Shown: one piece after another, positions 8,311 through 36,358 of the stretch
Position numbering within the stretch: the stretch's first letter is position 1
Layout: every line of letters begins with the position of its first letter
Virus record (IMG/VR): IMGVR_UViG_3300009413_000013
Coordinates: 1-46,261 of that record
DNA: 46,261 nt
Origin: a virus
Direction: 5' to 3' (one strand)
Position numbers and translations under genes: made by a program
Notes under the pieces: generated by a model
Databases searched by the model: none
Seen by the model: only the letters and a program-made list of their open reading frames with translations
Told to the model about the DNA's origin: nothing

Positions 8311-9073
8311 AAATAGTTATTACACCAGATCCACGGGGCATAATTCCAAGCGCTCCATATTTCCCTAAATCAATATTAGGGTCAGACCTTGAAGCACCAA
8401 ATCTCGTGGGATTAGCTCGACGCATCGCGTCCCGGTAGGCAAGGAATTCTTCGGCGCTTGTCGCGCCAGAACCGGGTTGCCTTGGCATCGCGCCACGACT
8501 TGGCATCGCGTCCCTGGAGGCAAGGAATTCTTCGGCGCTTGTCGCGCCAGAACCGGGTTGCCTTGGCATCGCGTCCCGGTAGGCAAGGAATTCTTCGGCG
8601 CTTGTCGCGCCAGAACCAGATTGTTTTCTCAACCATGGCATCGAGTCCCGGTATTCAAGTAATTCTTCATCTGATAATGAGCCAGAACCAGATTGGGAAT
8701 TCTTAATTACTTCTCTCATCAAATCAATGGCAAATTCCTTGTCCTCTTCAGTCTCTGCCAATTGATAAAGATCAATTGCCTTTATCCAATCTTCATATGC
8801 TCGTTTTTTAACATCACCAAGTAATCTATTCATCCGGTCTAAAACCTGTTCCCTCCTACTCTCCTCACTCATACGAAAATCATCCTCAATATCTTTGATG
8901 GTTCCTTGGTAATACTTATCTTGCTCTGGCGTTAACCATAATCTTGGATTTTCCCAAGAAAAACCGGAAGGAGGAACACCATAGCTAGGGTCAACTGGGT
9001 AATAATCATATCCAATTAATTCTTCATCACTTGTCGAACCAGATATATCACGATTAATCTTATCTTCAGCCAT
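8309..9073 (-). CDS. Protein with ~24-residue tandem repeats, unknown function
   Basis: 254 residues. The first 125 are an acidic helical domain (PEQDKYYQGTIKDIEDDFRM, RMNRLLGDVKKRAYEDWIKA). From about residue 130 four imperfect repeats follow with core GSGATSAEEFLAYRDAMP; the first is the most divergent (GSGSLSDEELLEYRDSMP) and one copy has an extra SRGAMPRQP. The tail ends in GSGVITI. An AAGGAGATTCGGC SD precedes the ATG. The gene lies just after the portal gene, where other phages have a variety of small accessory virion genes. Repeats probably expand and shrink by recombination, and a detached copy lies beyond the stop. No catalytic motif. Confidence 0.55.
   Translation of the reverse strand: MAEDKINRDISGSTSDEELIGYDYYPVDPSYGVPPSGFSWENPRLWLTPEQDKYYQGTIKDIEDDFRMSEESRREQVLDRMNRLLGDVKKRAYEDWIKAIDLYQLAETEEDKEFAIDLMREVIKNSQSGSGSLSDEELLEYRDSMPWLRKQSGSGATSAEEFLAYRDAMPRQPGSGATSAEEFLASRDAMPSRGAMPRQPGSGATSAEEFLAYRDAMRRANPTRFGASRSDPNIDLGKYGALGIMPRGSGVITI
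8421..8697. repeat. Coding tandem repeat, four units of about 60-80 bp
   Basis: Four units share a core around AGGAATTCTTCGGCGCTTGT and TCGCGCCAGAACCGG. The two inner units are near-identical, one unit carries an insertion of about 18 bp, and the unit nearest 8697 is the most diverged. This gradient (identical inside, diverged at the edge) is what recent unequal exchange would give. Confidence 0.8.
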
Positions 9074-13518: not shown

Positions 13519-14307
13519 GTGGGGGTCCCCCCTCTTTCCAATTTTTCAAAGTTATCAACAGAAAATCAACATAAAAAACATAGTTATCAACAGATGGATC
13601 AAGTCTAAGTCATTGAAATCATTGAAGTTTTGACGAAATGACATTTCTCGTTAAAAAAATGCCGATTTTTTAGGCAAAAAACGATAAATACGCAGAAGGG
13701 GAGCGACAAACATGGGGATAACTTTGTGCGAGAATTTATTGATTGTCAACCGCCTGTTGATAACTTTTAATCGAAAAAATGACCTTCGACACGTCGAAAA
13801 TAAAGGAAAGTCGAAGGAAAGGCGAGGAAATTCGATGGTGTGAAGACTTTAGGCACCCAACGGAAGGGTAACGGACAATTATCAAGGGCCTGCCGGGTCA
13901 TGACGCGCAAGGAAAGGCTAGGAGACAAGGAGGAAGGCTACCGACAACTATTTAACAGTGGATTTTTGATCGTAGCCCCTCGAAGAGAGGAAAACGCTGG
14001 CCATAGCGTTACCGAACCCAGTGTGTAACCACCTAGTATTGAGACCAGACCGCGAGAAAGCATAACAAGGCTCTAACCTTGGCGGGGATTAGATCAACAA
14101 CCCAGTATTTTAGGGCAAATGAAAAAAAAAAAAAACTTCTAAAATCCGCTCTATATAGTAGAAAACACTGGATTTTCACACTTTTCGAGCGTAAACCCGG
14201 CAAGCATATAATATCAAAGGGACAAAATAATACTTGACATTCATTTAGATATGAATTAGTTAACACGGTCATCAGTCAATAAAGGAACACAACAGGAGGG
14301 TAATGAC
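13519..14307. other. Divergent control region between late and early genes
   Basis: This 789-nt stretch separates leftward late genes from rightward early genes. It holds two TTATCAACA sites (13552-13560, 13584-13592), one TGTTGATAA (13755-13763) and one TGGGGATAA (13713-13721), all one base from a DnaA box or its complement. It also has a perfect 6-bp inverted repeat TTCGAC/GTCGAA (13785-13790/13793-13798), small hairpins at 13993-14010 and 14066-14081, a long A-run near 14120-14134, and a TTGACA element at 14234. The 62-codon frame at 13840-14028 has no clear SD and looks non-coding. A leftward promoter must exist here but I could not place it. Confidence 0.6.
14234..14262 (+). promoter_or_regulatory. 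Candidate early promoter with internal inverted repeat
   Basis: A perfect -35 box TTGACA (14234-14239) lies 17 nt before a weak -10 (TAGTTA, 14257-14262). The spacer contains the inverted repeat ATTCAT/ATGAAT (14239-14244/14251-14256), a plausible operator because a protein bound there would block polymerase. It is about 45 nt upstream of the first early gene. The -10 match is poor, so activator dependence is possible. Confidence 0.45.
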
Positions 14308-14310
14308 ATG
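14281..14310 (+). repeat. Duplicated leader, copy 1 (30 bp, includes SD and ATG)
   Basis: An exact 30-bp copy of 14507-14536. It contains the SD AGGAGGG and ends in the ATG (14308-14310) of the first early gene. Both copies occupy the same position relative to their start codons. Confidence 0.9.
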
Positions 14311-14529
14311 GCACGACAGACGAAGGCGGACATGAGAAAGGAATGGGAGTCAGAAGTACGCAACGAGATTCAAGGATACTTGGACACCATCCAGGAAACG
14401 GAGGAGCTGGCGGATTGTTACCGGCGCGAACGCGATAGGCTCACGGTAGCACGCGACATTTATCGCGAGCGTCTGAACTCGCTCGAGGACAGACTTATAA
14501 GCCAACAAAGGAACACAACAGGAGGGTAA
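14308..14529 (+). CDS. Small charged coiled-coil protein of unknown function
   Basis: 73 residues, highly charged and helical (KADMRKEWESEVRNEIQGYL, YRRERDRLTVARDIYRERLN), with a heptad-like pattern suggesting a short coiled coil. It is the first gene after the divergent control region and therefore probably an immediate-early gene. A strong SD (AGGAGGG) precedes the ATG. Its last codons (QQRNTTGG) are encoded by the second copy of the 30-bp duplicated leader, so the C-terminus was created by, or has adapted to, that duplication. Function unknown. Confidence 0.55.
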   Translation: MARQTKADMRKEWESEVRNEIQGYLDTIQETEELADCYRRERDRLTVARDIYRERLNSLEDRLISQQRNTTGG

Positions 14530-14536
14530 TGACATG
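14507..14536 (+). repeat. Duplicated leader, copy 2 (30 bp, includes SD and ATG)
   Basis: Identical to 14281-14310. This copy ends in the ATG (14534-14536) of the second early gene and at the same time encodes the last codons and stop of the first. Confidence 0.9.
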
Positions 14537-14947
14537 AGGCAAATAACAAAAAAATCAGCGCTCGCATTATTAGGCTATAACCCCACATTCACTGAGGGTA
14601 ACACCACTGTGGCCAACGTAGGGAAAAAGTTAGGAGGATCTGGACGCGGGATGTTCCTCCACGGGAATCTTATAGCCTACCGGTCTTATAGTGAGATAAA
14701 CGATGAGTTTCAGGTTAGCGTCCCTCCACCAGGGAAAGGCACGACCTCACTGACCCTTGCGGGGTGGAATACCAGGACCACACGGGACCGGCTCAATGGT
14801 ATCCTGGAGCTAATGGACAAGCCATGGCGTTTTACTCAACGGGAGTATGACGCGTACTTACTCGACACTAACAACGGGACCGGTTTCAAAATCAGCCCAT
14901 GGGCGCAAATAGATGCGAGAACGGGCCAAATTATCAGCGATCAATAA
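14534..14947 (+). CDS. Early protein of unknown function
   Basis: 137 residues. The N-terminus is basic (MRQITKKSALALLGYNPTFT), followed by a Gly-rich stretch (KKLGGSGRGMFLHGNLIAYR), FQVSVPPPGKGTTSLTLAGW, and WNTRTTRDRLNGILELMDKP, where a conserved-looking Trp-Asn-Thr-x-Thr-x-x-Arg motif suggests a small fold seen in other phage proteins of unknown role. It starts with the same duplicated leader as the preceding gene, so both should be translated at similar efficiency. The FQVSVPP segment is shared with the 16331-16870 gene at both DNA and protein level. Confidence 0.5.
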   Translation: MRQITKKSALALLGYNPTFTEGNTTVANVGKKLGGSGRGMFLHGNLIAYRSYSEINDEFQVSVPPPGKGTTSLTLAGWNTRTTRDRLNGILELMDKPWRFTQREYDAYLLDTNNGTGFKISPWAQIDARTGQIISDQ

Positions 14948-14974
14948 CCTGGGTCTTATAAAGGAGCAAACACC

Positions 14975-15169
14975 ATGACAATAGAAATAGACGCTAAAGT
15001 ATGCCCATGGGGTGGACACTGGTTCTACCCCGCAAATAAACTGGCCAAGGACATGATTTCAATAATCGGGAGCCCAGGAAGAAAAACCTATCTCCGGGAT
15101 GAGCTAGCAACACTCCGGGATACGCTAGGATACAACGTGGTTCTACATCTGCCGGAGGTGAAAATATGA
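14975..15169 (+). CDS. Small early protein of unknown function
   Basis: 64 residues: MTIEIDAKVCPWGGHWFYPA, then KDMISIIGSPGRKTYLRDEL and a C-terminal beta-like end. AAAGGAG lies upstream of the ATG with good spacing. The stop overlaps the next start as ATGA (15166-15169). One Cys only, so no zinc site. Function unknown. Confidence 0.5.
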   Translation: MTIEIDAKVCPWGGHWFYPANKLAKDMISIIGSPGRKTYLRDELATLRDTLGYNVVLHLPEVKI

Positions 15170-15534
15170 AGTTGAATACTGACGCCATGGACACGCTAGG
15201 GACAATGGCAGACCGCATGGAGTCTGTTCTTGCCGGGCTAAAAGAAAGGAGGCTATCAATGAATCAGGGACTAAAGCACACCGACAAGGTCGTCACGGTG
15301 CTCCACCATCATCGCTTACCTAACAGCCGTCTAGGGAATCCCAAGTATGAGGTCATTCTAAGGGTGAATGAAACAGGAAAGACGCTGTGGTGTCGGACTA
15401 GGGCAGACAACGGATGGGCTCATGTGTTGTCGGATAATCTTGAAGGGTGCGACGCCGTCGCTTCCTGGACGTTCAAGGAACGCGGCGCAGCCACACTTGA
15501 TAACCTGGAATTGATCGATAAGGAGACGACATGA
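15166..15534 (+). CDS. Early protein of unknown function
   Basis: 122 residues. A helical start (DAMDTLGTMADRMESVLAGL) is followed by a beta-rich domain (KVVTVLHHHRLPNSRLGNPK, LWCRTRADNGWAHVLSDNLE). An internal ATG (MNQGLKH) preceded by AAGGAGG (around 15245-15261) could give a shorter product containing only the beta domain. It is coupled to its neighbours on both sides by 4-nt overlaps, the downstream one being the clamp-like gene, which suggests a shared role in replication. Family not recognised. Confidence 0.5.
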   Translation: MKLNTDAMDTLGTMADRMESVLAGLKERRLSMNQGLKHTDKVVTVLHHHRLPNSRLGNPKYEVILRVNETGKTLWCRTRADNGWAHVLSDNLEGCDAVASWTFKERGAATLDNLELIDKETT

Positions 15535-16145
15535 TAAATGGGAAACCCACAATAGAAATACCTACTGACCTGTTGAAGGCTGCGACCCTGTTCGCGGCTA
15601 AATCAACAGACGTCAGGCTAAATTTCAACGCTGTATGGATTGAATGGAGACGTAGGAACGTGGGCATCATATCAACCGACGGACACCGCTTGTTCGCGGG
15701 CCACTTTGAGTTGCCAGTACCAGACGACGAGTGCGAGCCGGGGAGCGCCACCATTGAATTGTCGCAAGTCAAGATAGCACTAACCGGATATAAGGGAGAC
15801 ACCATCTCCTTCTCGTTTGACCCCGGGACACTAAAAGGGACACTAGGTAAATTGGAAGTGGTCGGGATGGACTGTGATGTTCCAGCCTGGCGCAATGTAG
15901 TGCCGAAAACGGTGAGCGGAGAGGTGGCGCACTATAACCCAAGTTATGTTGGGGATCTGGCGAAAGCGTCTAAGGTTTTATTGCCGAAAGGTGGCGCGGA
16001 GTCAACGGTAACGCACCAAAACGGACAGAAGCCAGCGCTCGTTACTTTTGGTTCTCGCGGTGATGTGGTCGCGGTGTTGATGCCGTGCCGACATAAATTT
16101 GACTACGATAGAACGAACAGCATTGCTCAAAGCATTGCGGCTTAA
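15531..16145 (+). CDS. dnaN-like: DNA polymerase III beta-subunit-like sliding clamp (shortened)
   Basis: 204 residues. Several stretches match bacterial DnaN in order: IEIPTDLLKAATLFAAKS (domain II start), ISTDGHRLFA (DnaN ATDGHRLA), VPAWRNVVP (DnaN FPDYRRVLP, the domain II/III linker), YNPSYVGDLAKA (DnaN FNVSYVLDVLNA) and the C-terminal VLMPCR (DnaN VVMPMR, which lines the partner-binding pocket). E. coli beta is 366 residues with three domains. Domain I and about half of domain III appear to be absent here. It should encircle DNA and tether the phage DnaE. The start overlaps the previous stop (ATGA). Assigned by motif recall, with no search run. Confidence 0.72.
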   Translation: MINGKPTIEIPTDLLKAATLFAAKSTDVRLNFNAVWIEWRRRNVGIISTDGHRLFAGHFELPVPDDECEPGSATIELSQVKIALTGYKGDTISFSFDPGTLKGTLGKLEVVGMDCDVPAWRNVVPKTVSGEVAHYNPSYVGDLAKASKVLLPKGGAESTVTHQNGQKPALVTFGSRGDVVAVLMPCRHKFDYDRTNSIAQSIAA

Positions 16146-16163
16146 CAGGGGGCCAAGTAGATA

Positions 16164-16206
16164 GCGCATTGATCACCACGGTATAATGCCGTGGTGGTCT
16201 TTGTGG
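16164..16206 (+). promoter_or_regulatory. Intercistronic hairpin element, copy 1
   Basis: Located just after the clamp gene stop. GCGCATTG (16164-16171) runs into a strong hairpin, CACCACGG/CCGTGGTG (16174-16181/16189-16196) extended by flanking pairs, followed by CTTTGTGG (16199-16206). The same three blocks occur in the same order at 19572-19606. The weak U-run makes it a poor intrinsic terminator; processing or attenuation is possible. Confidence 0.55.
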
Positions 16207-16238
16207 TGGCCACAACAGCCCACCAGAAAGGATGACAT

Positions 16239-16319
16239 ATGGAACCCGACGAATTGGAGACAGCAATCACGGTTAGGCCAAAGCATCTGCCGTATTATTA
16301 TGTGGCGGAAAATGACTAG
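16239..16319 (+). CDS. Tiny protein (26 aa), unknown function
   Basis: ATG 16239 with a good SD (AGAAAGGATGACAT) opens 26 codons, MEPDELETAITVRPKHLPYY and then YVAEND, ending at TAG 16319. The next SD (AGGAGG) follows immediately. The acidic start and aromatic end do not match any family I know. It fills the gap between the clamp gene and the next gene, and its SD matches the early-gene style, so translation is plausible. Confidence 0.5.
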   Translation: MEPDELETAITVRPKHLPYYYVAEND

Positions 16320-16330
16320 GAGGAGATTCT

Positions 16331-16870
16331 ATGACACTGGAAGAATTTAAGGAGGGAGCAATCGGTGAGATTGCCAGGCGAGGGCACGTCCTGGGGTCTG
16401 TGAGCCGTGCGTTCGTTCGGTTCACCAGCAAGGAACAGGAGCGTTACACCTGGCATTCATTCCAAGGAATCAGGGCAAAAAGGCGACCAGCCTGGCACAA
16501 TTGGAAGCAGGGGGAATCCTTCGCCTTTGAGCTGGCGGCGGCAAGGTTGGGCCAAGAGATAGTCAAGGTACATTTCCGAGGCGTTGTCCCGGTTACTGAT
16601 GAGTCTTTCCCACGGGACACATTGACCACTCTGTTATGCTCCCCAGGGAGCCCACTAGCGCCCGTTAATGGATCAGATAAGTGGAGGGTACTATACCACC
16701 AGGCGTTTCAGGTTAGCGGCCCTCCTGGGGCATTCTTCTCGGGCTTGTTCAATGTACTGAGTCCGGTGATTTCGTCCGTGGACGATGTGTTCAGGAATCA
16801 TGCCCTAGAACTGGGGGCCATCATATCGAACGAACGCCGTTTGTTCGACTCTGAAATGCTGGCTGCCTAG
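16331..16870 (+). CDS. Early protein of unknown function
   Basis: 179 residues, mixed alpha/beta, with a basic region (FQGIRAKRRPAWHNWKQGES) and a hydrophobic C-terminal half (PPGAFFSGLFNVLSPVISSV). No transmembrane segment is certain. AGGAGG precedes the ATG. The segment FQVSGPPGAF is shared with the 14534-14947 gene, in the same frame as there, suggesting either a common ancestor or a shared DNA repeat. A clear intrinsic terminator follows the stop, so this gene ends the first early transcription block. Function unknown. Confidence 0.5.
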   Translation: MTLEEFKEGAIGEIARRGHVLGSVSRAFVRFTSKEQERYTWHSFQGIRAKRRPAWHNWKQGESFAFELAAARLGQEIVKVHFRGVVPVTDESFPRDTLTTLLCSPGSPLAPVNGSDKWRVLYHQAFQVSGPPGAFFSGLFNVLSPVISSVDDVFRNHALELGAIISNERRLFDSEMLAA

Positions 16871-16882
16871 CAGCAATGGTCC

Positions 16883-16923
16883 GCACCCTGGGGGCTTTAT
16901 GGTGTCCCTGGGGTGCTTTTTTT
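16883..16923 (+). terminator. Intrinsic terminator ending the first early block
   Basis: Stem GCACCC (16883-16888) pairs with GGGTGC (16911-16916), with further G/C pairing possible inside the loop, followed by seven T (16917-16923). It lies 12 nt after a stop codon and just before the iteron array. Confidence 0.7.
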
Positions 16924-16947
16924 GGTGGATAATTCATGATTTTTGGG

Positions 16948-17000
16948 TGTTGATAACCTGTTGATAACCTGTTGATAACCTGTTGATAACCTGTTGATAA
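16948..17000 (+). repeat. Five 11-bp iterons containing DnaA-box-like TGTTGATAA
   Basis: TGTTGATAA occurs at 16948-16956, 16959-16967, 16970-16978, 16981-16989 and 16992-17000, an exact 11-bp period, in phase with about one helical turn. The complement TTATCAACA is one base from the consensus DnaA box TTATCCACA. A perfect box in the opposite orientation follows at 17030-17038. Confidence 0.85.
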
Positions 17001-17062
17001 CTTTTTCCGAATTTTCTCGAATTCGCCGGTTATCCACACCTATCGTGATCGCCTATAATTGG

Positions 17063-17112
17063 TTTGCACGGTTTGCACGGGATGGATTTGCACGGTTTGC
17101 ACGGCTTGCACC
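17063..17112 (+). repeat. Second iteron family, TTTGCACGG
   Basis: TTTGCACGG occurs exactly at 17063-17071, 17072-17080, 17087-17095 and 17096-17104, with a degenerate fifth copy CTTGCACC at 17105-17112. It starts 4 nt after a TATAAT box and ends just before the SD of the next gene. Copies would lie over or just after a transcription start, as operators do. Confidence 0.8.
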
Positions 17113-17127
17113 TAAAGGAGAAAACAA

Positions 17128-17406
17128 ATGAAATTTATGAAAACTAGAGATGGGAAAACTTTTACTGAGTGGACTGCTTACTGGCGGGATTTCGACCAAG
17201 ACGGAGGCTCAAGTTCAGCGGGGCCACCGACACAGACCCAAATCAAAAATCGTGCCACATGGATGTTGTGTAACGCGATGGAAAAACTTTGCCATGAATT
17301 TGCTGATGACCATTGGCTTAACCATGAAATTGATGCCGTACTTGCGTCGGAGCTTCGTCGACAGTTAAAAAGGGTTAAAGAAGGATTCTTTGCTTATCAC
17401 GATTAA
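17128..17406 (+). CDS. Small protein of unknown function
   Basis: 92 residues, mostly helical: KTFTEWTAYWRDFDQDGGSS, then NRATWMLCNAMEKLCHEFAD and ELRRQLKRVKEGFFAYHD. AAAGGAG lies upstream. Its leader is the TTTGCACGG iteron block, so its expression may be controlled by whatever binds there, a typical arrangement for a replication initiator or copy-control gene. No HTH or initiator motif could be recognised, so this remains a guess from position. Confidence 0.5.
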   Translation: MKFMKTRDGKTFTEWTAYWRDFDQDGGSSSAGPPTQTQIKNRATWMLCNAMEKLCHEFADDHWLNHEIDAVLASELRRQLKRVKEGFFAYHD

Positions 17407-17459
17407 GTTATTGATATTATTCAATTTTTAATTTTTTTTTATATTTTGTAAAAAAGTTC

Positions 17460-17488
17460 TTGACACGTATTCATATTCTTGATACTAT
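17460..17488 (+). promoter_or_regulatory. Sigma70-type promoter
   Basis: TTGACA (17460-17465), 17-nt spacer, TACTAT (17483-17488), preceded by a long A/T-rich tract (17407-17458) that could act as an UP element. It would drive the Sel1-repeat gene and following genes after the terminator at 16883-16923. This is the best promoter match seen in the window. Confidence 0.7.
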
Positions 17489-17551
17489 GTTTTTGAGAGT
17501 TGAGAAAGGAACCGGAGGCCAACGGGCCAATTTAGAAAGGAGAGACAGGAC

Positions 17552-17959
17552 ATGGATCAGACTAAGCAAGATATTGGACAGGATGAGAACGGAGTCTATC
17601 GTTCCAGGTTAGCGGCCCTCCACCAGGAAAACGTTCTTGGTCGAAAGGGATTGAAAGCATACGACGCTGGCGATTACGAAACTGCGCTGAAGCAATGGAA
17701 GGTGCTTGCTGAGCAGGGGTCTGCTAGAGCACAGTTTAATCTTGGCGTGATGTACGACGAAGGAGAGGGTGTCGAACAGGATTATGAGGAAGCAGCGAAT
17801 TGGTATCGTAAAGCCGCTGAGCATGGGCATCCTGAAGCGCAGTACAATCTTGCTGCGATGTACTATGAAGGAGATGGTGTCGAACAGGATTATGAGGAAG
17901 CACTGAAATGGTCCCTGAAATCTGCTAAGCAGGGGCATAGACGATTAAGGATTCGGTAA
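17552..17959 (+). CDS. Sel1-like repeat (TPR-related) protein
   Basis: 135 residues. After a 35-residue lead, one TPR-like unit (KAYDAGDYETALKQWKVLAE) is followed by two Sel1 repeats of 36 residues: ARAQFNLGVMYDEGEGVEQD and PEAQYNLAAMYYEGDGVEQD. A third begins (KSAKQGH) but breaks off in RRLRIR and a stop, so the array looks cut short. Sel1 proteins are adaptor scaffolds for protein-protein contacts and are common in bacteria but unusual in phages. There is no signal peptide, so it would act in the cytoplasm. SD AGAAAGGAG is present. A 17-bp direct repeat flanks the gene core, consistent with acquisition by recombination. Confidence 0.75.
   Translation: MDQTKQDIGQDENGVYRSRLAALHQENVLGRKGLKAYDAGDYETALKQWKVLAEQGSARAQFNLGVMYDEGEGVEQDYEEAANWYRKAAEHGHPEAQYNLAAMYYEGDGVEQDYEEALKWSLKSAKQGHRRLRIR
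17573..17589 (+). repeat. 17-bp direct repeat, left copy
   Basis: ATTGGACAGGATGAGAA, identical to 17963-17979. The left copy lies in the Sel1 gene near its start, the right copy lies 390 nt away just after its stop. Confidence 0.85.
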
Positions 17960-17962
17960 GCC

Positions 17963-17979
17963 ATTGGACAGGATGAGAA
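17963..17979 (+). repeat. 17-bp direct repeat, right copy
   Basis: Identical to 17573-17589. It sits in the leader of the next gene, where it supplies the purine-rich stretch before the SD. Confidence 0.85.
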
Positions 17980-17990
17980 AGGATTAGGGC

Positions 17991-18521
17991 ATGAGCTACG
18001 ATTTGGATGAGCAAGCAGAGTATAATTTACGTCAGCAAAAGTATATGGCGTTGTTGAACGATGGAACGTCCGCAACAGGGAGCACAGCCCAAGAAGCGGT
18101 TGACAAGCTTGTGGGTTTTCACCTCGACAAGTTCACAGGGGAAATAGCTTTGAAACCATGCGTTGGCAGTTACAAGTCCAAAGGGACAAGAGATGTAGCG
18201 ATCTTTGAAAGTCCGCAGTGGCGGTTTAGAAATACCTGGAAAAGTATATGGGGTGACCACAGAGGCCAAGACAACCTCAAGGCTATATCAGAATTGCTGT
18301 TCAACAAACCCGTGTTATTGGAAGAATCACCGGAACCACCCCCGATCAAGTATATCACCCTGAAGATCCTGAAGAGAAAACGTAAAGCCAGGGACAAGCA
18401 TCACCGGATTTGTGTGGCAGTTTTTGGTAAGGGTGAACCCGATAAGTCTAGCGTGTTATATGAAGTTGGCGAACAGTGGTATCAGGGAGGAGGACTCATC
18501 TATCTGTCCAGCGCAAATTAA
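17991..18521 (+). CDS. Protein of unknown function
   Basis: 176 residues. An acidic helical start (DLDEQAEYNLRQQKYMALLN) leads into a middle region (KLVGFHLDKFTGEIALKPCV) and a strongly basic stretch (KILKRKRKARDKHHRICVAV) about residues 125-145 that could bind nucleic acid. The C-terminus looks beta-rich (VLYEVGEQWYQGGGLIYLSS). A GAAAGGATTAGGGC leader precedes the ATG. No family recognised. A long hairpin (18536-18593) follows. Confidence 0.5.
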   Translation: MSYDLDEQAEYNLRQQKYMALLNDGTSATGSTAQEAVDKLVGFHLDKFTGEIALKPCVGSYKSKGTRDVAIFESPQWRFRNTWKSIWGDHRGQDNLKAISELLFNKPVLLEESPEPPPIKYITLKILKRKRKARDKHHRICVAVFGKGEPDKSSVLYEVGEQWYQGGGLIYLSSAN

Positions 18522-18535
18522 ATAGTTATTAACCC

Positions 18536-18593
18536 GTGGTGAGGGGAGACATAGATTAAGGGGATGCGGAGCCTAACTCCCCTCGCCCACCAC
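18536..18593 (+). promoter_or_regulatory. Long intercistronic hairpin
   Basis: GTGGT (18536-18540) and GAGGGGAG (18541-18548) pair with CTCCCCTC (18577-18584) and ACCAC (18589-18593), a 13-bp stem with a 4-nt bulge and a 28-nt loop. No U-run follows, so it is not an intrinsic terminator. It ends about 5 nt before the SD of the next gene and may act as a message-stability or processing element. Confidence 0.55.
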
Positions 18594-18610
18594 CTTAGAA
18601 AGGAGTCGTT

Positions 18611-18982
18611 ATGCTTTTACTCACAAAGGCGATTAGGAAAAAAATGGAAGAGAACCATCGGAGGGTATGGGGAGGCGAGTCGTTCATATTGACCGACGTA
18701 GCGGACGAGTTGAGTGGAAACATTGAGCCTGTCGTCAAACTTTTCTATCCGGCAGGATCTGCTACTTATCTCCTGTCAGAAATAAGCGGGGATATTGCGT
18801 TTGGGTTGTGCGACCTTGGGCATGGATCTCCTGAACTTGGTAATGTTTCCATGGATGAGTTAGAGAGATTCCACGGGAAATTCGGCTTGGGGTTCGAGCG
18901 TGATCGTTGGTTTAGGCCAACGGGTAAAACCATGAATGAGTATGCCCAGGAATCAAGGGCCGTTGGTCACATCGTAGCGTGA
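18611..18982 (+). CDS. DUF2958-like protein
   Basis: 123 residues. The sequence resembles the DUF2958 family found on plasmids and phages: LLLTKAIRKKMEENHRR at the start, VVKLFYPAGSATYLLSEI in the middle (family pattern of K-F-F/Y-x-P with a Thr/Tyr strand), FGLCDLGHGSPELGNVSMDE and ELERFHGKFGLGFERDRWFR at the end. Its biochemical role is unknown; members often travel with mobile elements. SD AGAAAGGAG is present. It lies between two strong hairpin elements. Confidence 0.65.
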   Translation: MLLLTKAIRKKMEENHRRVWGGESFILTDVADELSGNIEPVVKLFYPAGSATYLLSEISGDIAFGLCDLGHGSPELGNVSMDELERFHGKFGLGFERDRWFRPTGKTMNEYAQESRAVGHIVA

Positions 18983-18998
18983 CAAGAGAGTGGATCAT

Positions 18999-19075
18999 GG
19001 GCAGCTTAGTGTTGCCCAAATAATGAGAAAGGACCAGGGTTGTCCAGTGGTTGATACGGTCACTGCCTGGGGCAA
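18999..19075 (+). promoter_or_regulatory. Leader with competing RNA pairings
   Basis: TTGCCC (19012-19017) can pair upstream with GGGCA (18999-19003) or downstream with GGGCAA (19070-19075). The downstream pairing would enclose a hairpin made of CCAGG/CCTGG and CAGTG/CACTG (19034-19038/19066-19070 and 19045-19049/19061-19065). The two states exclude each other. The SD of the next mini-gene follows shortly after. Confidence 0.4.
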
Positions 19076-19093
19076 GCCAAAAAGGAATTTTAT

Positions 19094-19228
19094 ATGGACA
19101 AGTATAATAGCTTCAGTGAAATGCTTATTAGAGAATACATTGATATTACCAACTTAACCCAAGGGACAAATGCCAATATTAACAAGGTTAACACTGATAA
19201 TGAATCAGATGATAAGGAAGTTGGCTAA
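19094..19228 (+). CDS. Small acidic protein (44 aa), unknown function
   Basis: ATG 19094 with SD AAAAAGGA opens 44 codons: MDKYNSFSEMLIREYIDITN and then an Asn/Asp/Glu-rich tail ending DDKEVG. The stop is followed within 4 nt by the SD of the next gene. The first half could form an amphipathic helix. Function unknown; it may be a regulatory or anti-host mini-protein as is usual for this part of an early region. Confidence 0.55.
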   Translation: MDKYNSFSEMLIREYIDITNLTQGTNANINKVNTDNESDDKEVG

Positions 19229-19244
19229 CAAAAAGGAGAACGTA

Positions 19245-19568
19245 ATGAAAAAGGAAAAGAGCACCGTAAAGGTTAAAGGCGTGACCCCTGATTTTTACCT
19301 TCTGACTGAAGCTAATCAGGAAGAGGTGAATTGGTTAATCTCAAGATTGAAAACCATCGAGGGTAATGGTGAGAATAGTTGGCGTAATTTAATCAATATT
19401 AAAGCCGTATTCACTAAGACTATGATGGCTTTAGTCAATCGTTTGGCGTCCAATGAATTGGAGACGGCGTTTGCTGAATATGATGAGAACCAAGGGAACC
19501 ATATGAAAGTGAAAAAATTATTTGAGCTAGGACAAGAATCATTATATCGAGAATGTATGGACTGGTAG
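19245..19568 (+). CDS. Protein of unknown function
   Basis: 107 residues from ATG 19245, chosen because AAAAAGGAG lies 7 nt upstream; a longer frame starting at 19170 would overlap the preceding mini-gene and lacks an SD. The sequence is helical: LLTEANQEEVNWLISRLKTI, NLINIKAVFTKTMMALVNRL, LETAFAEYDENQGNHMKVKK. No motif recognised. Confidence 0.55.
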   Translation: MKKEKSTVKVKGVTPDFYLLTEANQEEVNWLISRLKTIEGNGENSWRNLINIKAVFTKTMMALVNRLASNELETAFAEYDENQGNHMKVKKLFELGQESLYRECMDW

Positions 19569-19571
19569 TTT

Positions 19572-19606
19572 GCGCATTGCCTACTCACCACGGGTAGGCT
19601 TTGTGG
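19572..19606 (+). promoter_or_regulatory. Intercistronic hairpin element, copy 2
   Basis: GCGCATTG (19572-19579), a hairpin GCCTAC/GTAGGC (19579-19584/19594-19599) with CACCACGG in its loop region (19586-19593), then CTTTGTGG (19599-19606). The same blocks in the same order occur at 16164-16206. Both copies begin within about 20 nt of a stop codon. Confidence 0.55.
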
Positions 19607-19610
19607 AGGT

Positions 19611-19667
19611 CATTACCAGCCTAGAAAGGAAGTAATTATTTGTAGAGGGCATTACCAGCCTAGAAAG
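19611..19667 (+). repeat. Duplicated SD leader (18-bp direct repeat)
   Basis: CATTACCAGCCTAGAAAG occurs at 19611-19628 and 19650-19667, each followed by GA-rich SD sequence. Only the second copy is followed by a proper gene; after the first, the SD faces a TTG codon directly followed by TAG. Confidence 0.8.
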
Positions 19668-19680
19668 AAAGGAAGGCTCT

Positions 19681-19776
19681 ATGGCGCGTTTATTTGTTGC
19701 CGTGGTTAATTACATGCTTAAAAATCGTTTTAGGCACATCATAAGCAAGGTTCATAAACTGGAAATTGGAAGATGA
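19681..19776 (+). CDS. Small basic protein (31 aa)
   Basis: ATG 19681 with SD GAAAGGAAGG opens 31 codons: MARLFVAVVNYMLKNRFRHI and then ISKVHKLEIGR. The hydrophobic first dozen residues followed by a basic helix suggest a membrane-associated peptide. Its stop overlaps the glycosyltransferase-like start as ATGA (19773-19776), so it may serve mainly as a coupled leader for that gene. Confidence 0.55.
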   Translation: MARLFVAVVNYMLKNRFRHIISKVHKLEIGR

Positions 19777-20573
19777 CTTTTCCAGAACCAGTGGTGGCTA
19801 TACCATCATACAATGATCCTAAATCTCTTAGGAGGTGCGTACGCAGTATAAGGAAGTACTCACCATGTATTTCTATCTATGTCGTTGAGCAGGTGTCCCA
19901 TACTAAGGACATTATTGATGACGTTACATTCTATAAGCATCATCCGTCACAATTGGGCGTAGGCATGGCTAGGAAAGTTGTTACTGATTATGTCCTAAGA
20001 GATCATCCAGGCTCTGTCATTATTCATATGGACGATGACACCGTTGTTCATGGATCAGGGGTAATGGAAAAAGCTAATCAAATAATACGTCAATATCCAG
20101 AATTTGCCTGGGTTGGTGCGCTAGGTGCTTTCAAGCACTGGTATATATCTGGTGGAATGTCGCAAGATGATATCATTAACAAAATCCATTTTTGCACCAA
20201 TATTGGTGCCGGTTTTGCAGCCATCAATCCAGAATTCATAAAAAAGCATGGACATTTCGACCATAGTTTTATTACGAAAGAAGATGTTGAATTATGCTCA
20301 AGGGCCTGGGCGAACGGTTGGTTTGTCGGGATGGTGGACATACAGATAAGGTCGCCAAGAAAAAAACGAGATATAAGCCACCCGTTCCATCCTAAGAGTG
20401 AACAATACTTGTCTGCCAATGAGAAGATAGCTTCCCTTTACCATGGGCATTTTAAGTTGGTTGGCAACCGTAAACTAAGAAAGCGATTTGATTTCCCGGA
20501 GGAATCTTTTACACTAAGAGAGGATATCCGTGATCTATCTATCACATGGATAAAAAAGGAATGTAAGTCTTAA
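19773..20573 (+). CDS. Glycosyltransferase-like protein (GT-A fold)
   Basis: 266 residues. The start VVAIPSYNDPKSLRRCVRSI is the classic GT2/GT-A opening. A DXD-type metal motif follows in VIIHMDDDTVV (DDD at 87-89), and the acceptor side has GAGFAAINPEFI and FITKEDVELCSRAWANGW, where the Glu-Asp pair is a candidate catalytic base. It should transfer a sugar from a nucleotide donor to an acceptor that the sequence does not reveal. In phages such enzymes modify DNA bases or host surface sugars. There is no membrane segment, so a cytoplasmic acceptor such as DNA is plausible. Confidence 0.7.
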   Translation: MTFPEPVVAIPSYNDPKSLRRCVRSIRKYSPCISIYVVEQVSHTKDIIDDVTFYKHHPSQLGVGMARKVVTDYVLRDHPGSVIIHMDDDTVVHGSGVMEKANQIIRQYPEFAWVGALGAFKHWYISGGMSQDDIINKIHFCTNIGAGFAAINPEFIKKHGHFDHSFITKEDVELCSRAWANGWFVGMVDIQIRSPRKKRDISHPFHPKSEQYLSANEKIASLYHGHFKLVGNRKLRKRFDFPEESFTLREDIRDLSITWIKKECKS

Positions 20574-26811: not shown

Positions 26812-27460
26812 GCTAATCAATTGCACATATGATGCCGTCAACCTACTCCTGCTAACAAAAAACACTCGTCTAATTGATGACGACTATGCTTATGAAAAAA
26901 TTAGAGGTTGGCCATGGGATGAAAAGCAAAAAGAACTTGAGCATATGCTCAATACGATTCGTTCATCCTGGGAATTCATTGACTACATATTCAGTCTTAG
27001 AGGAGTAAGCAGGGCATTTACGCATCAATTAGTTCGCACCAGGAACGCATCATATGCTCAACAGTCTCAAAGAGTCGTGGATATGTCCGGGTTTAATTAT
27101 TATACCCCACTGAAAATTGAGGAAAATCCAAAGGCAAAAGAAATTTATGATGAATGTATGGAACATATAAATAAATCATATCAATTAATTCGGAATCATG
27201 TTCCACCGGAAGATGCCAGAGGATTATTGCCAACAAATATCAATACGAATATTATTGCCAAATTTAATTTGAGAACACTTAGTGAAATGGCGAAATCAAG
27301 GCTCAGTCCACGAGCACAGGGCGAATATCAAAAGATATTCAAACTAATGATTGAAGAAGTCATTAAAGTTCATCCTTGGGCAGAACCATTTTTAACACCA
27401 AAAGAATGGGCGGCTCCATCAATGGCGACACCTTTAAATAGAGAGGAAACAAATGTCTGA
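26801..27460 (+). CDS. thyX: FAD-dependent thymidylate synthase ThyX
   Basis: 219 residues from ATG 26801 (SD AAAAAGGAG); a longer frame from 26714 overlaps the flavoprotein gene needlessly. The ThyX signature region reads FTHQLVRTRNASYAQQSQRV (about 73-92), a variant of RHRxxSxNxxSxR in which the second residue is Thr rather than His. It is followed by the C-terminal block EDARGLLPTNINTN and FNLRTLSEMAKSRLSPRAQG. It converts dUMP to dTMP with methylenetetrahydrofolate and reduced flavin, feeding phage DNA synthesis. The variant signature is worth noting but such changes occur in phage ThyX. Confidence 0.9.
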   Translation: MKVELINCTYDAVNLLLLTKNTRLIDDDYAYEKIRGWPWDEKQKELEHMLNTIRSSWEFIDYIFSLRGVSRAFTHQLVRTRNASYAQQSQRVVDMSGFNYYTPLKIEENPKAKEIYDECMEHINKSYQLIRNHVPPEDARGLLPTNINTNIIAKFNLRTLSEMAKSRLSPRAQGEYQKIFKLMIEEVIKVHPWAEPFLTPKEWAAPSMATPLNREETNV

Positions 27461-27665
27461 TAATAAAAAAACGTATCACAAATGGACTGATGGTGAAGTG
27501 CTGGCTGTAAGAGCATTAAAAAATAATCGAAAGATGACAACAAAGCAAATTGCCGAATACACCGGGAAAAGCCCAATTCAAATTAACCATGCGTTACACC
27601 GGTACAAATTACAGCCGCATAAACCTGGTTTTTTCGCCAGGGTAAAGCGTTTCATCTTCGGTTAG
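27453..27665 (+). CDS. Small helix-turn-helix (Myb/SANT-like) DNA-binding protein
   Basis: 70 residues. The core YHKWTDGEVLAVRALKNNRK followed by TTKQIAEYTGKSPIQINHAL looks like a Myb/SANT or homeodomain-like three-helix unit, with the second stretch as recognition HTH. The C-terminus is basic and hydrophobic (FFARVKRFIFG). It overlaps thyX by 8 nt. Such small DNA-binding proteins often regulate the local operon, and the target is unknown. Confidence 0.65.
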   Translation: MSDNKKTYHKWTDGEVLAVRALKNNRKMTTKQIAEYTGKSPIQINHALHRYKLQPHKPGFFARVKRFIFG

Positions 27666-30495: not shown

Positions 30496-30885
30496 ATGTT
30501 TTTAGGCAAATACAAAAACACAGTCGATAATAAGGGGCGTTTAAATCTCCCTAAAGAATTTAGTCAAAAACTAGGGAAACGCCTTATCATCGTGAACTCG
30601 ATCTTCGGGACTAACAGGTGTTTAGACGCATTCCCGATGGGAGAATGGGCGAGCATAGAAAAGGCCATGAGCCAGAAGCCTAGATTGAATAACCGCTCGA
30701 AGTTCCAGATTTACTACCTTAGCGGGGCTTTTGAGTGTGCCATTGATGACGGCAGGGTAACCATCCCTAAGACTTTGCGCGAATACGCCGGGATTGAAAA
30801 GAACGTCGTTCTAGGTGCCGCAGGAAGTAAGTTCAGGATCTGGGATCAGAGTGCTTGGATCAAGGTATTTAAGGAGAAGCCATGA
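30496..30885 (+). CDS. mraZ-like: MraZ-like transcriptional regulator
   Basis: 129 residues aligning by eye over nearly the whole MraZ length: MFLGKYKNTVDNKGRLNLPK (first SpoVT/AbrB-like half; E. coli MFRG..VNLDSKGRLSVP), CLDAFPMGEWASIEKAMSQK (E. coli LYPLPEWEIIEQKL), then the second half CAIDDGRVTIPKTLREYAGI (E. coli GRLLIAPVLRQHAGL) and KFRIWDQSAWIKVFKEKP (E. coli KFELWDETTW). Bacterial MraZ is about 150 residues and controls the dcw division and wall cluster by binding repeats at its own promoter. A phage copy could regulate phage genes or interfere with host division. The C-terminal tail is shorter. Confidence 0.85.
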   Translation: MFLGKYKNTVDNKGRLNLPKEFSQKLGKRLIIVNSIFGTNRCLDAFPMGEWASIEKAMSQKPRLNNRSKFQIYYLSGAFECAIDDGRVTIPKTLREYAGIEKNVVLGAAGSKFRIWDQSAWIKVFKEKP

Positions 30886-35935: not shown

Positions 35936-36358
35936 ATGAATATGAGTGAACAAAATTTTTGGACGCTGTTGAGATCATCACTTGATCTAAAAATGTATAG
36001 AATCGAAAATAAGGTCATAAAAGGAATGCCGGATGTACATTTTATTAAGGAAGGAAATAGCGGGTGGATAGAACTTAAATTCATGAGATCATGGCCAAAG
36101 AAGCGTATGCCAACCGGATTAAAATTAAATCAAGTCATGTGGCTTGATGAATACGCTAAGAATGGTGGCCGCTGTTGGATATTAATCCGCATTGGCCGTG
36201 ACTTCATAGGTCTAGTGAATGGAGAGCATGCGAAAAGGCTCTATGAAAAGCCTTCCAAGGATGAATTCATGGGCCTCCTTTCTTATATGAAAAGAGGCAA
36301 CATGAAAAAAGAAGATTGGGAAGAGTTGACCCATGTAATTACTTATCTCAATATTTAG
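35936..36358 (+). CDS. VRR-NUC-like endonuclease (PD-(D/E)XK fold)
   Basis: 140 residues. The nuclease core is KGMPDVHFIKEG followed by GWIELKFM: Pro32-Asp33, then Glu46-x-Lys48, the PD-(D/E)XK arrangement of the VRR-NUC family. An upstream Glu is found in RIENKVIKG. The middle segment LNQVMWLDEYAKNGGRCWIL is also typical of VRR-NUC and archaeal Hjc-like enzymes. Family members cut branched DNA. Position beside the SNF2-like helicase suggests resolution of replication or recombination branches before packaging. It is the last rightward gene and ends 10 nt from the convergent late gene. Confidence 0.8.
   Translation: MNMSEQNFWTLLRSSLDLKMYRIENKVIKGMPDVHFIKEGNSGWIELKFMRSWPKKRMPTGLKLNQVMWLDEYAKNGGRCWILIRIGRDFIGLVNGEHAKRLYEKPSKDEFMGLLSYMKRGNMKKEDWEELTHVITYLNI

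Follow-up and report, generated by a model that had tools for sequence, protein, structure and literature searches.

A phased array of DnaA-type boxes in the lineage-specific early region of an uncultivated marine phage

Does a row of phased repeats resembling DnaA boxes mark the start of replication in a phage genome, and which protein would read it? We addressed this question for the whole IMG/VR virus record of an uncultivated marine phage (46,261 bases, hereafter the window), in which the initial annotation had described five sites at a strict 11-bp spacing beside a perfect box in the opposite orientation. This architecture is borne out by our analysis. The sequence TGTTGATAA occurs exactly at 16948, 16959, 16970, 16981 and 16992, always on the plus strand and with each step measuring 11 bp, TRF reports 4.9 copies of period 11 with a match of 100%, and the facing box is an exact TTATCCACA, from which the five array boxes differ by one base (Table 1). 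The five sites had also been placed on one face of the helix, which holds roughly but not exactly, as 11 bp is close to one turn and the register drifts by ~0.5 bp per unit. An Rfam scan of the array returned no family.

Table 1. Features of the array locus and of the regions discussed with it (positions in the window)
Feature	Position	Strand	Basis or remark
Five head-to-tail DnaA-type boxes, unit TGTTGATAACC (minus strand, TTATCAACA)	16948-17001	+	11-bp period; TRF; bacterial parallels
DnaA box of consensus (high-affinity) type, TTATCCACA, oriented towards the array	17030-17038	+	Exact match; facing boxes in bacterial arrays
Spacer between array and facing box, 28 bp	17002-17029		A+T about 55%; stability not unusually low
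Intrinsic terminator, 13-bp stem, 7 T	16883-16923	+	Terminator scan; separates array from upstream operon
TATAAT, candidate -10 hexamer without recognisable -35	17054-17059	+	Exact hexamer
Second repeat family GGTTTGCAC with five units resembling (GG)TTTGCAC, period mostly 9 bp	17061-17111	+	Presumed 5' leader of next gene
92-aa ORF, family unassigned, AAGGAG ribosome site, downstream of array	17128-17406	+	ORF list
Lineage-specific block containing the array	14308-20573	+	Without homologues in the compared relatives and in Roseobacter phages CRP-901/902
Left arm of second cluster, with two CTGTTGATAAC boxes and a degenerate one in 11-bp register	13545-13593	-	Motif search, skew
Right arm of second cluster, with TGGGGATAACTTTG and CTGTTGATAACTTTT in the opposite orientation to the left arm	13713-13770	+	Motif search
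Largest noncoding gap of the genome, 789 bp, between divergent late and early operons	13519-14307		Preferred origin candidate
Sliding-clamp-like protein	15531-16145	+	Weak DnaN-domain match

At up to one mismatch, TGTTGATAA is found 37 times in the window, compared to 15.7 +/- 4.0 times in shuffled sequences. Outside the array there are four exact sites, where 0.9 are expected under an order-3 model of the genome, and three of these four lie within 212 bp. The number of array units differs among contigs that are 99.8% identical, with four in L005 and five in L004 and L007, while all else is kept; a further near-identical contig, L006, terminates inside the array. This difference of four versus five units comes from assembled contigs, in which repeat arrays can be mis-assembled.

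The array is located inside a noncoding gap of 257 bp (16871-17127), and the terminator, a strong one, and the second repeat family that had been reported to flank it are both present, as is a strong -10 hexamer. No match in Pfam or PHROG was obtained for the 92-aa ORF that follows. In a stability scan no window from the bottom 2% adjoins the array, and the 60-bp stretch that ranks second in the genome for low stability is located at 17402, 400 bp downstream. Elsewhere in the window, coding tandem repeats with units of 63-81 bp (8422-8617) give rise to a repeated GSGATSAEEFLAYRDAM in a late protein, and an Rfam Mu-gpT-DE RNA is found on the minus strand at 2594-2639, immediately downstream of the gene for the major capsid protein.

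For comparison with bacterial origins we searched ~85,000 genomes of bacteria and archaea for TGTTGATAANNTGTTGATAANNTGTTGATAA, which represents three array units at the 11-bp period. Such threefold TGTTGATAA arrays occur in only 31 genomes (31 loci). When the contig coordinates of the arrays are compared with those of the DnaA C-terminal domain, 15 of the 31 lie within 300 bp of this 3' part of dnaA, one more is 1.2 kb and another 3.4 kb away; loci from Poribacteria close to dnaA account for 13 of the 31. Boxes in the facing orientation follow downstream within ~210 bp in 22 of the 31 arrays, the same arrangement as in the phage. The oriC regions of Candidatus Poribacteria, Orenia and others share with the phage the 9-mer, the 11-bp period, CT/CC linkers and facing boxes downstream, but in these bacteria the array adjoins dnaA and is surrounded by more boxes, whereas the phage has no dnaA and its five units are strictly identical. 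At five bacterial loci (L105, L114, L115, L118 and L120), a pair of TGTTGATAA arrays with 11-bp period stands in opposed orientation at a distance from dnaA; these loci are likely to be oriC regions that do not adjoin this gene.

The oriC of E. coli, with its arrays flanked by R1 and R4, resembles the phage locus in combining tandem weaker boxes with a consensus box, the presumed nucleation site (PMC4285127). It differs in having two opposed degenerate arrays and a defined unwinding element, compared to a single array of identical sites with no clear unwinding element beside it in the phage. The TTATCAACA box is also among the oriC boxes used in a study of DnaA binding in Cyanothece (PMC4674748). 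A phased cluster of DnaA boxes, which is a trait of oriC-type regions, is present in the phage in the form of the five 11-bp boxes and the consensus box. Because the same architecture marks bacterial oriC beside dnaA, the assignment of the array as DnaA-type is well supported by its architecture.

Which DnaA would bind these sites? Homologues of DnaA and DnaB are absent from the phage genome, and therefore the host DnaA is the likely binder. The initial annotation had left the choice between host DnaA and a phage initiator that mimics it; a DnaA mimic encoded by the phage finds no support, as the genome has no homologue of DnaA. A Rep-type Pfam match was likewise not obtained among the early ORFs scanned, several of which have no family at all. 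Iteron origins such as P1 oriR and lambda ori also consist of tandem initiator sites with involvement of host DnaA. In contrast to these, the phage has no Rep or O-type initiator that we could find, and its sites match DnaA rather than an initiator of a phage. The replication genes that it does carry code for an AEP-type primase, a UvrD-type helicase, a Pol III alpha subunit, an RNase T-type exonuclease and an SNF2 helicase. The nearby “clamp gene” of the initial annotation turns out to be a weak case: the product of 15531-16145 matches the DnaN central domain with E=0.005 in Pfam and PDB clamps with 0.001, and is 26-30% identical to short phage proteins called Pol III beta or “RusA-like”. An alignment-free prediction of its fold gave no reliable model (mean pLDDT 37).

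The array is not shared with the relatives compared. These are 65-83% identical to the phage in terminase and portal and about 66-79% identical in primase, helicase and Pol III alpha. They contain no DnaA-box array and no gene from 14308 to 20573, and repeat scans of their divergent gaps revealed only scattered repeats of other sequence. The Roseobacter phages CRP-901/902 have only the structural half in common with the phage. The array itself was found solely in the near-identical contigs that cover the site, and is not conserved together with the replication genes in the relatives compared. We considered conservation among relatives as a test of function, but the absence of the whole block makes a phylogenetic footprint impossible. 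Because relatives with the terminase, primase and Pol III alpha of the phage do not have this block of ~6 kb, the array, judged by its distribution, is not the core origin of the phage family. The block, which includes clamp-like, Sel1-repeat, DUF2958 and glycosyltransferase genes, may be an acquired or replaced early region. The array belongs to this block. Either the lineage has gained a dependence on DnaA, or the array modulates replication rather than founding it.

A second cluster of boxes, which the initial annotation did not mention, lies ~3.4 kb from the 17-kb array. In its left arm, CTGTTGATAAC boxes are found on the minus strand at 13551 and 13583 with the degenerate box in between, and in its right arm the plus strand carries TGGGGATAAC at 13713 and CTGTTGATAAC at 13754. 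Three exact sites within 220 bp did not occur in any of 200 simulated genomes, and the motif TGTTGATAAC is common to all eight sites of both clusters. When the 60-bp windows of the genome are ranked by stability, the DNA of the cluster near 13540 falls in the lowest 1.3%. A 40-bp direct repeat (92.5%; 14271-14310 and 14497-14536) overlaps the starts of the first and the second early gene.

The initial annotation had named a switch in GC skew at the array as a check on its origin role. No such switch is seen: the cumulative skew has its minimum at 13591, inside the second cluster, and its maximum at 36328, the two being separated by roughly half of the genome, and the skew at 4-fold sites keeps its sign across the array (+0.15 to its left and +0.10 in the 3.5 kb to its right). 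Both extremes fall at switches of gene direction, and in relatives with informative contigs the minimum is also located at the operon divergence (24411 in G065, 29287 in G003 and 9484 in G058). Because the skew coincides with gene direction, it proves neither site, and we rejected it as proof of an origin. The array had been ranked as the best origin candidate, for which the presence of DnaA boxes speaks, while the skew minimum elsewhere and the absence of the array from relatives speak against it. We consider it more likely that the phage starts replication at the second cluster in the 13.5-14.3 kb gap than at the array, because that gap is the longest noncoding one and combines the skew minimum with inverted boxes and DNA of low stability.

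DnaA boxes are already known in phages, and their presence alone makes no origin. To our knowledge, T7-like and T5-like phages replicate without DnaA. Named phages with DnaA-box clusters include T7-like phages of the genus Berlinvirus, T5-like phages, Arthrobacter phages, Lactococcus AM phages, a C. difficile phage-plasmid and microviruses. Shigella phage A7 (Berlinvirus) carries four consensus boxes in noncoding DNA with equal spacing at both ends (L329:22-135 and L330:1604-1717), the cluster of the T5-like IME260 lies in an annotated repeat, and in the Arthrobacter phages Seahorse, Tiff81 and BillyTP the clusters lie no more than ~100 bp from the right end. An origin role of these end clusters is doubtful. 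The T5-like and T7-like (Berlinvirus) clusters resemble our locus in that phages of lytic type carry several DnaA boxes in DNA that does not code for protein; they are situated in terminal repeats or an injection-stop region, whereas the array studied here is internal, lies between a terminator and a candidate promoter and is built of TGTTGATAA boxes. Closer in form are the C. difficile phage-plasmid LIBA6276 and the microvirus bajarodmic 233, which have three to four intergenic TGTTGATAA boxes in 11-bp register, although the former array belongs to a partition region, the latter is near a Rep gene, and both genomes are unrelated to the phage.

In the IMG/VR collection, fourfold TGTKGATAA arrays with an 11-bp period were found in 39 contigs, four of which represent the studied phage (~35 others). 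In the phage collection, a control with the reversed motif returned 0 records, compared to 39 and 117 for the real motifs. Among the other arrays with enough flanking sequence, 25 of 26 do not fall in any ORF of at least 100 aa; primase, RecE, Bet/RecT, Erf, Sak4-type proteins and the terminase small subunit are encoded next to them, as are many proteins without family. In a scan of paired boxes in viral contigs, gaps of 2 (22) and 3 (20) are the commonest among the matches listed, and thus two periods are preferred within that set, of which 11 bp is one. The phage matches ranked by BLAST often show steps of 11-12 bp or 22-23 bp in place of a perfect array. We found no paper in the open-licence literature that describes such phage arrays as a class.

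Our data show what these sites look like, where they lie and in which lineages and other genomes they recur; from this we infer how they might be bound, loaded and used. Host DnaA would first settle on the consensus box TTATCCACA. From there ATP-DnaA would spread along the five weaker TTATCAACA boxes, adding a subunit with each turn in the way known from the low-affinity arrays in E. coli oriC. The resulting filament could assist the opening or licensing of phage replication, set the transcription of adjacent early genes, or do both. Strand opening would probably take place in the 13.5-14.3 kb gap, and the array at 17 kb would be linked to it as a site of loading or control. The phage would supply primase, Pol III alpha, exonuclease and possibly a clamp; having no DnaA or DnaB, it would require the initiator and the helicase of the host, unless its own primase starts synthesis. 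We put the chances of this reading, in which DnaA assists the start of replication, at slightly below even. Core replication in the family does without the array, which is absent in relatives, and similar clusters in the terminal repeats of phages that, as far as we know, do not use DnaA for replication argue by analogy against an origin role. The one base by which the array boxes depart from TTATCCACA and the lack of a low-stability window directly beside the array also count against this reading.

Could the boxes serve transcription instead? DnaA at the facing box and the array might activate or repress a promoter with its -10 element at 17054, with the 92-aa ORF and the following early genes as targets and without any origin. 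Array and box are placed between a terminator and an exact TATAAT whose -35 position would be covered by the facing box and lacks a good hexamer, a layout expected of an activator-dependent or repressible promoter, and in lambda the DnaA boxes near pO have been footprinted by DnaA (PMC3985674). Five tandem boxes, however, exceed the needs of a simple operator, the single TATAAT is weak evidence and was not returned by a promoter scan for two hexamers, and the 13.6 kb cluster in the divergent gap would need to have the same role. We regard such an operator, and the control of these genes by it, as unlikely.

A further reading, which we hold to be rather unlikely, is that the clusters titrate host DnaA and thereby hold back replication of the host, or have a role at DNA ends or during injection. 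The clusters in the terminal repeats of A7, identical at both ends, and in the annotated repeat of IME260 and those near the right end of the Arthrobacter phages are in line with it, as are the variable number of boxes and the T5 injection-stop region, described with DnaA boxes (PMC13250531), for which a similar role has been proposed. As a sponge, six to ten boxes per genome would nevertheless be few compared to those of the host chromosome until the phage has replicated; the phage record is classed as linear and has no end repeats. Least of all do we expect that DnaA is not involved and that CTGTTGATAAC is read by a phage-encoded or another host protein, e.g. an early repressor. The occurrence of TGTTGATAAC in all eight sites speaks for such a reader, and the phage encodes an HTH protein (27453-27665) and an MraZ-like protein (30496-30885) as small DNA-binding candidates, but motif and 11-bp phasing equal those of the bacterial oriC arrays beside dnaA, and CTGTGGATAAC is also the context of the box in an E. 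coli oligonucleotide (PMC4674748). The MraZ homologue (Pfam E=1e-22), a regulator of cell division, is missing in the relatives compared.

If host DnaA does bind the array, this would be a case of replication that begins via the initiator of the host although the phage brings a Pol III alpha of its own, and the box type could help to predict the hosts of uncultivated phages. More broadly, though we think it somewhat unlikely, phased noncoding DnaA-box arrays may be a convergent and portable element of host takeover, which phages would acquire with early-region cassettes, tune to the box type of the host oriC and use to capture DnaA for replication or to starve host initiation. Their recurrence in unrelated phages, some of which are thought to be independent of DnaA, makes it testable whether phages hijack DnaA, titrate it or merely carry its boxes.
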